A program made the translations under genes and the position numbers. Of a stretch of 64,000 nucleotides of DNA, positions 3,775-64,000 are shown one piece after another. The DNA lies in the NCBI GenBank assembly GCA_022508885.1, contig JAFLUG010000001.1, positions 18,861 through 82,860 on the forward strand. Reading direction: 5' to 3'. The number at the start of each line of letters is the position of its first letter. The first letter of the stretch is position 1. The notes beneath the pieces were generated by a model. That model was not told where the DNA came from. It ran no database searches and saw nothing but the letters and a program-made list of their open reading frames with translations. Source of the DNA: Oscillospiraceae bacterium (GTDB lineage Bacteria > Bacillota > Clostridia > Oscillospirales > Ruminococcaceae).

Positions 3775-3885
3775 GAATTTCAAAATTCATCACTTGACAG
3801 CGTTATGCGCGCAGCGCATAACGCTGTCAAGTGAGAACCGGTCAAAATTCTTTCTTCTGAAAAAATTTTGACCTTTTTGAAATTC
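3775..3885. repeat. Family A structured intergenic repeat, copy 1
   Basis: Ends are an inverted repeat GAATTTCAAAA (3775) / TTTTGAAATTC (to 3885). Hairpin 1 has a perfect 20-bp stem (arms 3791-3810 and 3814-3833, loop GCA). A linker AGAACCG follows, then hairpin 2 (3841-3872; arms GTCAAAATT and AATTTTGAC). Copy 2 at 46197-46293 has the same flanks, linker and layout but different stem sequences that still pair. It lies between fabH and fabG with no run of U suitable for a terminator. It could be a small mobile repeat or a transcribed leader RNA. Confidence 0.85.
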
Positions 3886-48950: not shown

Positions 48951-49148
48951 ATGGAAATTGGTTTGTTGTTCAGAATAGCCGCGGTTGGGATAATCGTGGC
49001 TGTGCTGAATTTGATCCTGAAAAAGACCGACCATGACGAACAGGCGGTCATGCTTACCGTCGCGGGGATAATAATAGTGCTTCTCATGCTTATTCCCGAA
49101 ATAGAGGAGCTGTTTAATACAATACAGGACGTTTTCGGATTGTGGTGA
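48951..49148 (+). CDS. spoIIIAC: Stage III sporulation protein AC
   Basis: Small membrane protein of 65 residues with two helices (about 5-22 and 34-52) flanking a charged loop KKTDHDEQAVMLTV. The sequence pattern FRIAAVGIIVAVLNLILKKT is typical of SpoIIIAC. Its stop codon is directly followed by family B repeat copy 1. Confidence 0.93.
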   Translation: MEIGLLFRIAAVGIIVAVLNLILKKTDHDEQAVMLTVAGIIIVLLMLIPEIEELFNTIQDVFGLW

Positions 49149-49222
49149 CAGACTGCCGATAAACCCTCATTTGTGCCGTCACGACGGCGATTCCTGACAT
49201 CTGAGGGCTTTTAGACAGTCTG
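49149..49222. repeat. Family B structured repeat, copy 1
   Basis: Starts at the first base after the spoIIIAC stop. Outer inverted repeat CAGACTG (49149-49155) / CAGTCTG (49216-49222); second arms CCCTCA (49164-49169) / TGAGGG (49202-49207); inner hairpin GCCGTC-AC-GACGGC (49175-49188). Copy 2 at 60062-60166 keeps the outer arms but has a different inner hairpin. It lies inside the spoIIIA operon. Confidence 0.85.
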
Positions 49223-49241
49223 AAATGCAGGTTGGTACAAT

Positions 49242-49628
49242 ATGGAAATTTTACAGCTATGCGGCGTTGGTATCTTATCCGCGGTCATCTGCCTGATACT
49301 GCGGAAATTCAGCAGCGAGGCGGCGTTTTTTGTAAGCATTGCTTCGGCGGTGATTATTTTCGCGATGGTCATCTCAATGCTCGTTCCGACAATAAACGCC
49401 GTAAAAAGCCTTTCCGAGCAGGCGGGGATAGACCTCGAGCTTGTGGGGGTCTTGCTTAAGGCGCTCGCGGTGTGTTATATAACCGCGCTTTGCTCTGAGA
49501 TAGCAAAGGACGCGGGAGAGGGCTCTGCGGCGGTAAAGATAGAGCTTGGCGGAAGAGCTGCGATAGCGGCTGTTTCTCTGCCGGTATTTGTAAACCTCGC
49601 CAAGCTGGTCACGGGGCTTATCAGATAG
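49242..49628 (+). CDS. spoIIIAD: Stage III sporulation protein AD
   Basis: The 128-residue membrane protein has four hydrophobic segments, including LCGVGILSAVICLILRKF, FVSIASAVIIFAMVISMLV and ALAVCYITALCSEIAKDAGE, the last being a family hallmark. It shares a distant fold with SpoIIIAC. It is separated from spoIIIAC by the family B repeat, about 93 bases, unlike the usual tight spacing. Confidence 0.93.
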   Translation: MEILQLCGVGILSAVICLILRKFSSEAAFFVSIASAVIIFAMVISMLVPTINAVKSLSEQAGIDLELVGVLLKALAVCYITALCSEIAKDAGEGSAAVKIELGGRAAIAAVSLPVFVNLAKLVTGLIR

Positions 49629-58487: not shown

Positions 58488-59216
58488 ATGCGGCTTGACG
58501 TATATTTGGCAGAGCGCGGATTTTGCGCGAGCAGAACCGCCGCCGCTCGTCTTATAGAAGCGGGCGGGGCTTCGGTAAACGGAAAAACAGCGAAAAAGCC
58601 CTCACTTTCGGTAAGCGAAGATGATGAGATTTCAGTTATTGAGGAAAAACAGCTTAAATATGTCGGGCGCGGAGGGCTTAAGCTCGAGCGCGCGATAGAG
58701 GTGTTTAGAATTGGTTTAAGCGGTAAGATCTGCATTGATGTGGGTGCTTCCACGGGCGGCTTTACTGACTGTATGCTGCAAAACGGAGCGGAAAGGGTCT
58801 ACGCGGTAGATGTCGGAACAGCCCAGCTTGCCGAAAAGCTGAAAAATGACCCGCGGGTCATTTCACTCGAGCAGACCGATGTCCGTGAGTTTTCGCTTGA
58901 ACAGCCAGCGGATTTTATTGGCGCGGACACGTCTTTTATCTCGCAAAAGCTGATTTTGCCGCATATTTTCCGTCTGCTGAAAAACGGCGGAGAGGCGGTC
59001 GTGCTGATAAAGCCGCAGTTTGAGGTAGGCAAGAAAAGCCTGCTTACAAAAAAAGGCATAGTGCGTGATGAAGGGTTGAGGCTTAAAATTGTTGAAGAGG
59101 TCAAGGCGTTTGCAAAGCAGTGCGGATTTGAGTGCATCGGCTGTGAGACTTCACCTATAAAGGGCGGAGACGGGAATATCGAATATCTTCTTGGACTGAG
59201 AAAGGACAAAATATGA
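58488..59216 (+). CDS. tlyA: TlyA-family rRNA 2'-O-methyltransferase
   Basis: The 242-residue protein has an N-terminal S4 RNA-binding domain (1-60, RLDVYLAERGFCASRTAAARLIEAG) and an FtsJ-like methyltransferase domain with SAM motif CIDVGASTGGFTDC (near 83-96) and VDVGTAQLAEKL. TlyA methylates ribosomal RNA in Mycobacterium and affects capreomycin sensitivity; in Bacillota it often lies between dxs and argR/recN as here. It overlaps nadK by four bases. Confidence 0.93.
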   Translation: MRLDVYLAERGFCASRTAAARLIEAGGASVNGKTAKKPSLSVSEDDEISVIEEKQLKYVGRGGLKLERAIEVFRIGLSGKICIDVGASTGGFTDCMLQNGAERVYAVDVGTAQLAEKLKNDPRVISLEQTDVREFSLEQPADFIGADTSFISQKLILPHIFRLLKNGGEAVVLIKPQFEVGKKSLLTKKGIVRDEGLRLKIVEEVKAFAKQCGFECIGCETSPIKGGDGNIEYLLGLRKDKI

Positions 59217-60061
59217 AGGTTTTAATTGTATTCAATCAGGGAAAAACGGGAGCTGCGACGCAGTCGCACAAGATCGCCCAGTTTCTGATAGCCGAGGGTA
59301 TCACACCCTGCATTTTCGGTGAGAACACTCTTTTCGCCGAAAAGGTCGGCGCGGAGGTGGTAGAGTCGCCCGAAGGCTGCGATTATATGATAACGGTCGG
59401 CGGCGACGGTACAATACTGCGCTGGGGAAAGGTCGCGGCTGAGTACGGTATCCCGCTGCTCGGAGTGAATTTCGGCAGGCTCGGTTTTATGGCTACGGTA
59501 GAGTCGGAGGATATCTGGAAAATTCCCGATATTTTAAAGGCGAATCTCACAGTAACGCCGCGAATGATGCTTGACTGCAAGCTTATCCGCGACGGCGAGG
59601 TCATCTTCTCGGAAAAGGTTTTAAACGATGTCACTATTTCCCGAAGCAGCCGCTCGAGACTTCCCGAGTATGTTATAAACTGCGGCGAGAGCGAGGTTAC
59701 GCGCGTGAGAGCCGACGGAGTTATTTTAAGCTCGCCCACAGGTTCTACGGCTTATTCCCTTGCGGCAGGAGGACCGATAATCTCTCCCGATATGGAGTGC
59801 ATTGAGTTTACGGCGCTTTGTCCGCATACTCTCTTTAACCGCACTATGATCTTTTCCACGAAGAAAAAGGTTACGGCGCGGGTTTGCCACTACGGCGACA
59901 GCACAGCGACGATCTCCGCGGACGGGGGCGCGGCAGTGCCGTTTTTCGAGGGCGACGTCCTTCAGCTTACCCGTGCGGAAAAAGACCTGCTATTGATAGA
60001 AACGGGCGAGGGCTTCTACGGGGTTATTCACAACAAGTTATTAACGCCGATAAAGGATTAA
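59213..60061 (+). CDS. nadK: NAD kinase
   Basis: Phosphorylates NAD+ to NADP+. The 282-residue protein has the diagnostic GGDGT (63-67, Asp65 catalytic) in ITVGGDGTILRWG, GVNFGRLGFMATVE, and the second motif SPTGSTAYSLAAGGPI. LNDV stands in place of the common LNEV of the NAD-binding motif, a mild change. It overlaps tlyA by four bases; the TAA stop is directly followed by family B repeat copy 2. Confidence 0.94.
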   Translation: MKVLIVFNQGKTGAATQSHKIAQFLIAEGITPCIFGENTLFAEKVGAEVVESPEGCDYMITVGGDGTILRWGKVAAEYGIPLLGVNFGRLGFMATVESEDIWKIPDILKANLTVTPRMMLDCKLIRDGEVIFSEKVLNDVTISRSSRSRLPEYVINCGESEVTRVRADGVILSSPTGSTAYSLAAGGPIISPDMECIEFTALCPHTLFNRTMIFSTKKKVTARVCHYGDSTATISADGGAAVPFFEGDVLQLTRAEKDLLLIETGEGFYGVIHNKLLTPIKD

Positions 60062-60166
60062 CAGACTGCCAATAAACCCTCATCTGCTTTGTCAGCCTCA
60101 CCACGGCAACCATTAAGGTTAGCCGTGGTAAGGCTTCCTAACATCTGAGGGCTTCTTGACAGTCTG
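60062..60166. repeat. Family B structured repeat, copy 2
   Basis: Starts at the first base after the nadK stop. Outer arms CAGACTG (60062-60068) / CAGTCTG (60160-60166) and CCCTCA / TGAGGG are shared with copy 1. The interior is a longer hairpin: GCCT/AGGC, then CCACGGC (60101-60107) / GCCGTGG (60122-60128), then AACC/GGTT with loop ATTAA. No U-run, so not a standard terminator. Confidence 0.85.
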
Positions 60167-60209
60167 TAAGTATACAATTGAATTGAATAGTGGTTAACAG
60201 GGAGCGAAT

Positions 60210-60656
60210 ATGAAAAAGAAAGCGCGCCAGCTTCTGATAATGGAGATAATTTCGCAAAACGAAGTAGAAACGCAGAATCAGCTTATGGAGCTTTTGCGCG
60301 AGCGCGGCGTTGAGACCGCGCAGGCGACACTGTCGCGGGATATCGCGGAGCTGCGTATTGAAAAGTGTATGTCCGAAAGCGGAGTTTCGCGCTATTTTTC
60401 GGGAATTTCACAGGACGAGCTTACGTACAGCGAGATTTTTGCTCAGTCGGTCGTGTCGGTGGATTACGCGTCGAATATTGTCGTTATGAAATGTCACGCG
60501 GGAATGGCTAACGCGGCGTGTAAGGTAGTGGACGAGCGGAAGATAGGCTCGGTCATGGGAACGATAGCGGGCGACGACACGGTTTTTATCCTCACAAGGA
60601 CCGAAAATCACGCGAAGGCGCTGTCGATTCAGCTTGCGAGAATGATGCACAGATAG
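60210..60656 (+). CDS. argR: Arginine repressor ArgR
   Basis: Hexameric regulator of arginine metabolism. The 148-residue protein has the winged helix (about 1-70, with QAQATLSRDIAELR-type recognition segment) and the oligomerisation/arginine-binding domain with GTIAGDDTVFIL near the C-terminus. AGGGAG precedes the ATG. In Bacillota argR sits with recN downstream of dxs/tlyA/nadK, as here. Confidence 0.94.
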   Translation: MKKKARQLLIMEIISQNEVETQNQLMELLRERGVETAQATLSRDIAELRIEKCMSESGVSRYFSGISQDELTYSEIFAQSVVSVDYASNIVVMKCHAGMANAACKVVDERKIGSVMGTIAGDDTVFILTRTENHAKALSIQLARMMHR

Positions 60657-60914: not shown

Positions 60915-60974
60915 TGGATTATTGTTTTCTCAGGCACGTTTTTACAAATAATTTGTTTTCACCCAAACAAATAA

Positions 60975-61031
60975 TTAAAAGTCTTTGGAAGGGGGTTCGG
61001 GGGAAACCTTTCTTCAGAAAGGTTTCCCCCG
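60975..61031. repeat. Family C hairpin repeat, copy 1 (upstream of recN)
   Basis: TTAAAAGTCTTTGGAAGGG lead-in followed by a perfect 15-bp hairpin CGGGGGAAACCTTTC-TTCA-GAAAGGTTTCCCCCG (60998-61031). No T run follows. Copies 2 and 3 share the lead-in and the GGGGAAAC stem. Confidence 0.85.
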
Positions 61032-61057
61032 AGAACAATCAACGAGGAGCGTTAAAA

Positions 61058-62704: not shown

Positions 62705-62710
62705 GATTTT

Positions 62711-62768
62711 TTGAGGGGAAACTTTCTGTAGAAAGTTTCCCCTCAAACTCCCCTTCAAAGACTTTTAA
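62711..62768. repeat. Family C hairpin repeat, copy 2 (downstream of recN, inverted)
   Basis: Reverse orientation relative to copy 1: a perfect 16-bp hairpin (62711-62726 / 62731-62746, loop TGTA) followed by the reversed lead-in up to 62768. The arms differ from copy 1 but pair perfectly. recN thus lies between two oppositely oriented copies. Confidence 0.85.
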
Positions 62769-62807
62769 TACTGCCGCTAAGCGGCGGGTCGCGTTTGGGA
62801 ACAAAAG

Positions 62808-63945: not shown

Positions 63946-63951
63946 GCGGTA

Positions 63952-64000
63952 TTAAAAAGTTTTGGAAGGGGTTCAAGGGGAAACCTTTTTCAAAAGGTTT
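63952..64000. repeat. Family C hairpin repeat, copy 3 (cut by window end)
   Basis: TTAAAAAGTTTTGGAAGGGG lead-in and the rising arm AAGGGGAAACCTTTT followed by the start of the falling arm; same orientation as copy 1. The element is incomplete at base 64000. Confidence 0.75.

Follow-up and report, generated by a model that had tools for sequence, protein, structure and literature searches.

Two genes in the 64,000-nucleotide stretch of DNA analysed here (hereafter the window), spoIIIAC and nadK, are each followed immediately by a copy of the same structured repeat, which raises the question of what this element is and why it lies against stop codons. Both starting points given in a preliminary description of this DNA were borne out: the TGA of spoIIIAC occupies positions 49146–49148 and copy 1 runs from 49149, and the TAA of nadK occupies positions 60059–60061 and copy 2 runs from 60062 (Table 1). 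The separation of spoIIIAC and spoIIIAD by 93 bases was likewise confirmed, as compared to a few bases at the same junction in relatives, with three bases between stop and start in G022, G033 and G061. On the evidence set out below, the feature is very probably a non-autonomous miniature transposon, an IS1182-type MITE.

Anatomy and distribution of the repeat family

The arms of both copies are 21-nt imperfect inverted repeats (CAGACTGCCRATAAACCCTCA / TGAGGGCTTNTNGACAGTCTG). Their pattern matched five times in the window against 0.8 expected, and all four perfect matches are arms of copies 1 and 2 (CAGACTGNNNNNAANCCCTCA), in line with the arm conservation initially described. The given strand folds much more stably than shuffled sequences (z of −4.7 for copy 1 and −8.4 for copy 2), and the complementary strand more stably again (z of −5.5 and −12.9, respectively); the better-folding strand of both copies is the antisense of the spoIIIA and nadK–argR operons.

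In the window's own genome (G000), we obtained 46 forward and 46 reverse pattern matches, versus 0 and 1 for a reversed control, which pair up into some 45 copies, chiefly of 104–106 or 122–132 bp. Copies of the family range from 44 to 198 bp, most of them measuring 104–132 bp, and, as is typical of a MITE, they are short and carry no transposase gene of their own. The body of the element is a near-perfect hairpin, mostly 104–132 bp long, bounded by CAGACTG and CAGTCTG. In other members of the genus, an 8- or 20-nt linker adjoins one side of the hairpin and leads to a box, CTTTTTCTACAANCTG, which closes a tail of ~24 or 36 nt and is the true outer end of the element, so that both outer ends read CAGNNTGTNGA inward. 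The end of copy 1, placed at 49222 in the preliminary description, therefore had to be revised, since relatives show this further tail with its own outer end, which has decayed here. The tail is mostly decayed throughout the window's genome, where a recognisable box is kept in three copies. Judging by junction comparison and tail anatomy, the material between the copy 1 hairpin and the spoIIIAD start, missing from relatives, is probably a decayed element tail together with a target remnant, and the putative tail of copy 2 looks, by eye, like the 20-nt linker AGAAATGCGAATTAAATTGA of other genomes.

Table 1. Coordinates of the two repeat copies and their neighbouring genes in the window.
Feature	Position	Strand	Remark or basis
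Copy 1, short 74-bp form	49149..49222	+	F orientation (GATAAA end first), flush to spoIIIAC stop
Copy 1, left terminal inverted repeat CAGACTGCCGATAAACCCTCA	49149..49169	+	
Copy 1, right inner inverted repeat CAGACTGTCTAAAAGCCCTCA (reverse strand)	49202..49222	-	
Inserted material AAATGCAGGTTGGTACAAT, copy 1 hairpin to spoIIIAD start	49223..49241	+	spoIIIAC–spoIIIAD junction comparison, tail anatomy
Copy 2, 105-bp form	60062..60166	+	F orientation, flush to nadK stop
Copy 2, left terminal inverted repeat	60062..60082	+	
Copy 2, right inner inverted repeat	60146..60166	-	
Putative decayed tail of copy 2 TAAGTATACAATTGAATTGAATAGTG	60167..60192	+	Missing from G012 empty site
spoIIIAC	48951..49148	+	TIGR02848 above cut-off
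spoIIIAD	49242..49628	+	TIGR02849 below cut-off, plus operon context
nadK (NAD kinase)	59213..60061	+	
argR (arginine repressor)	60210..60656	+	

The pattern was present in 24 of the 61 genomes searched, 23 of which belong to the same genus, with counts within the genus ranging from zero to dozens; the one match outside it is lone, chance-like and in another family. A scan of species genomes placed the family mainly in uncultured Clostridia/Oscillospiraceae gut MAGs, and it was not found in viral contigs. The family is essentially restricted to a single genus of gut bacteria, all of them uncultured.

The window contains other repeats as well. A G-rich repeat of 38–62 nt (TTGGAAGGGGGTTCGGGGGAAACCTTT-like) occurs in direct and inverted orientation at 60974–61035, 62708–62769 and 63951–63988, around a gene that we take to be recN-like, and a perfect 21-bp inverted repeat with a 3-nt loop (TCACTTGACAGCGTTATGCGC) lies at 3790–3834.

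Mobility, target duplications and a related insertion sequence

Comparison with relatives showed that the element has moved. The nadK–argR gap, occupied in G000, is empty in G012 and in the other relatives read, and the spoIIIAC–spoIIIAD gap holds the element, among the relatives read, only in G000 and G012, the two closest genomes (the G012 orthologue of copy 1 is at L256/L110). Nine further sites of the tested set match contiguously in G012. Insertions are accordingly polymorphic between close relatives, as in other MITEs. Further differences between the two genomes affect the hairpin itself: side-stem modules of ~21–55 nt were gained or lost at L044, L047, L049 and L057 relative to their G012 orthologues (for example, lengths of 105 and 126 nt in one pair and of 61 and 116 nt in another), and L042:3072–3176, one of the nine sites, has the complete hairpin in G000, whereas its counterpart L323 of G012 keeps TGA-CAGACTG-AAAGG, likely after a deletion from CAGACTG to its near-repeat CAGTCTG.

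Target duplications gave a weak signal when searched for without a fixed outer box and a clear one with the box fixed. Scored directly outside both outer ends, with a score of at least 6, duplications flank 31 of the 58 copies that have an intact outer box in related genomes, as compared to 0.2% by chance. Complete stem-loops of 20–29 bp, such as AACCGCTCGGCTTTGCCGGGCGGTT, make up 22 of these duplications, in which whole terminator stem-loops have been duplicated; the other nine are 6–15 bp long. In the window's own genome, most copies have neither a target duplication nor an intact outer box, L040 being the only clear duplication, probably because of the age of the copies.

A search with the related end CAGNCTGTATATAAA recovered a 1551-bp insertion sequence in G033, with ends CAGTCTGTATATAAACCC and CAGCTTGTCCAAAAACC, encoding a 477-aa protein that matches the NCBIfam IS1182 transposase model NF033551 at 379 bits (cut-off 270) as well as PF05598 and PF13751. 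This insertion sequence is flanked by exact 34-bp stem-loop duplications, and a 21-bp stem-loop is duplicated around a second, degraded one in G020. The MITE end CAGACTGTATATAAAGCCC matches CAGTCTGTATATAAACCC of the G033 insertion sequence, the outer end CAGCTTGTAGAAAAAG matches CAGCTTGTCCAAAAA, and MITE copies bearing the CAGACTGTATATAAAGCCC / CAGACTGTATATAAA end share the usual hairpin interior. No IS1182 or DDE_Tnp_1 transposase was detected with PF13751, PF01609 or a protein search in G000, a genome that is ~91% complete, and the loci analysed contain no box pair 0.6–4 kb apart that could enclose a transposase. An intact IS1182 gene was found only in G033, and present-day transposase content therefore does not track copy number; for this reason, movement of the MITE in trans by an IS1182-type transposase is something that we infer from sequence. 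According to the mechanism that we favour, an IS1182-family transposase of the genus would act in trans on the MITE ends and choose its targets by structure, so that new copies would insert where a stem-loop, in most cases a transcription terminator, has its foot, and would duplicate that stem-loop entirely; gene 3′ ends, directly after the stop codon, would be an alternative target.

Two other transposase types were considered as partners and rejected: DDE_Tnp_1 (PF01609) occurs in only three of seven genomes, the highest-copy genomes not being among them, and the Y1 gene that would indicate RAYT/IS200 mobilisation does not correlate with copy number. The sole Y1_Tnp (IS200/RAYT-type) gene of G000, at C133:39339–39695 (L069, L352; E 8.8e-40), is unassociated with the hairpin family. 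Other short non-coding elements with CAGNNTGTAGAAAAAG or CAGNCTGTATATAAA ends and unrelated interiors were seen at L113, L114, L131, L132 and L060:9574–9769, and in G033 (L353) a stretch resembling the G-rich repeat of the window adjoins the IS1182 element.

Stop codons and the divergence of the hairpin

To measure distances to stop codons across the genomic copies, we relied on gene calls from a purpose-made codon-based gene finder. Of 41 copies that could be scored, 19 have their GATAAA end 0–6 nt downstream of a native stop, whereas 5.3% would be expected for random intergenic positions (p about 5e-14), and when both ends are counted, 28 of the 45 copies in G000 either adjoin a stop or provide one. 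An orientation-strict rule was ruled out, as subtraction of the 24-nt tail leaves the box end, too, abutting or supplying a stop in 8 copies. Stop distances in other genomes are bimodal, being either 0–7 nt or, where a terminator hairpin intervenes, ~20–50 nt. The earlier proposal of an insertion preference for stop codons is supported, abutment being far above chance, but it does not cover everything: the copies in sister genomes lie mostly against terminator hairpins, which they duplicate. At the empty counterparts of stop-abutting sites in G012 there are no obvious hairpins, and stop-codon sites may therefore obey a rule other than that of terminator sites.

Structure-directed target choice, and tolerance of copies whose hairpin is masked by the terminating ribosome, are both candidate causes of this preference. 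A terminator only a few bp from a stop has almost no effect, since the terminating ribosome represses it (PMC4824070), and stop-abutting copies may therefore be tolerated inside operons, where the terminating ribosome would keep the hairpin from acting on downstream genes. The reason that we prefer for the observed positions is insertion near gene 3′ ends, combined with the survival of copies very near the stop. Survival by itself, that is, purifying selection on random insertion with zero target preference, appears unlikely to be the whole cause. It would be consistent with the near absence of insertions in coding sequence, with the little room left by short operon gaps, and with ribosome masking, which would render stop-adjacent hairpins harmless (PMC4824070); however, in the gap that each occupies, 21 of 22 copies lie no more than 6 nt from the stop (2 of the 21 using a stop inside the element's own end), compared with 8.3 expected, or 14.6 when the 25 nt before the start are excluded to allow for the ribosome-binding site. 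Moreover, five stop-adjacent copies lie 0–6 nt from the stop despite ample space, in gaps of 137–193 nt. A bolder version of structure-directed targeting, which we regard as a long shot, is that the IS1182-type system reads structure and not sequence, joining to stem-loops at their 5′ feet once these are extruded (the hypothetical pathway b of Wan et al. 2017) and so duplicating the whole terminator, and that in the window's lineage it would have shifted to the base after stops, target choice being linked to the termination of translation or to the 3′ ends of transcripts and one hairpin strand serving as a folded single-stranded or RNA intermediate.

The pairing of the hairpin bears on a further possibility, related to the modulation of operon mRNA suggested in the preliminary description, that the element acts in cis as an operon mRNA hairpin at the stop, controlling stability, processing or termination and kept for that purpose. 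Covariation between copies is strong, with 97.2% of cells paired, double-sided changes in 26 of 42 pairs and 0 of 500 shuffles as high; the copies are positioned in transcribed gene 3′ ends; and ERIC and YPAL repeats can change upstream mRNA stability (PMC2229807). Despite this covariation, the inserted hairpin changes as fast as its flanks, leaving a host RNA function unsupported and, in our estimate, improbable: over nine orthologous loci of G000 and G012, the hairpins diverge by 4.0% and their flanks by 3.7–6.1%, and of the changed pairs 19 are broken and 3 kept (although copies that changed in length inflate the broken class). Such divergence, with pairing left unpreserved, argues against a maintained RNA function. 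Further, the strand antisense to the stop-abutting genes is the better-folding one in 127 of 131 copies, the hairpin element had no Rfam match at gathering score, the same sites are unoccupied in most relatives, and there is no sign of an intrinsic terminator, neither a T-run directly after the stem nor a terminator-like site at the element. A promoter or terminator role of copy 1 was also set aside, with a promoter match at 49212–49241 that is only at chance level.

The structure seems to be kept not by host selection on each copy but in lineages that transpose, or else by template switching. Such switching, within one strand and during replication, would produce matched arm changes in place of selection and is compatible with the MITE reading; we treat it as a serious possibility, with somewhat less than an even chance. 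Between the orthologues L031:3010–3114 (G000) and L343 (G012) the hairpin tip is inverted, one carrying CAGCCTTTGTGGCTA and the other its reverse complement, which reads as a template-switch signature, and whole side-stem modules have been gained and lost; template switching alone, however, does not account for the strand asymmetry of the family alignment (A1), with 105 G.U cells versus 21 A.C cells. This asymmetry, the hairpin form and the extragenic site near gene ends would also suit a REP/REPIN-like repeat dispersed via single-stranded DNA by a RAYT (Y1 tyrosine transposase), and the genome does have one Y1_Tnp gene. We find that origin hardly credible, given that Y1_Tnp is missing from the high-copy genomes G012, G013, G017, G033 and G036 yet present in zero-copy genomes, that target duplications and inverted termini fit a DDE element, and that the units are 3–5 times the length of a REP.

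Relation to known elements

The IS1182-type MITE described here provides many natural, independent insertion sites in one genus, on which structure-guided target choice becomes testable. The analysis also carries a caution, arising from orthologous copies without constraint and from one hairpin-tip inversion, that dispersed hairpins may covary strongly without serving their host as RNA.

Within the IS1182 family, IS1272 and TnSha1 target stem-loops and terminators irrespective of sequence and, like the element here, occur directly downstream of genes, with a stop codon within an inverted repeat (PMC5678879, PMC4923244). IS1272 deletes or replaces the stem-loop with no duplication (PMC5678879, PMC4923244), whereas the present element duplicates it completely. 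A whole stem-loop would be duplicated if joining took place at the 5′ feet of a cruciform, an outcome that Wan et al. 2017 drew only as their alternative pathway b; the duplication earlier proposed only as such a route is seen here, together with a sharp preference for the base after the stop. MITEPye1 of Paracoccus yeei, also IS1182-type (PMC11578231), is similarly non-autonomous and intergenic, with IS1182-like terminal inverted repeats and a long stem-loop, but it has 1–3 copies per chromosome and 4-bp duplications, whereas the present family numbers dozens of copies, abuts stops and has duplications as long as a stem-loop.

More distant parallels come from other repeat families. YPAL / RU-2 of Yersinia is likewise a palindromic miniature element with targets spanning or adjoining dyad symmetry, and its target duplications are 3–26 bp (PMC2229807); its host is unrelated, the passage cited names no transposase for it, and the comparison made here is one of behaviour. 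ERIC / IRU elements are also palindromic intergenic repeats, of ~127 bp, co-transcribed with neighbouring genes (PMC2229807), but they differ in having TA at their termini and enterobacterial hosts. REP / REPIN repeats with RAYT share the form of extragenic hairpins, although they are tagged palindromes of 20–40 bp tied to a Y1 transposase, neither of which is true here. MITEPye1, YPAL and IS1272 each show parts of the element's behaviour, and both stop abutment and stem-loop duplication are unusually clear in the present family.
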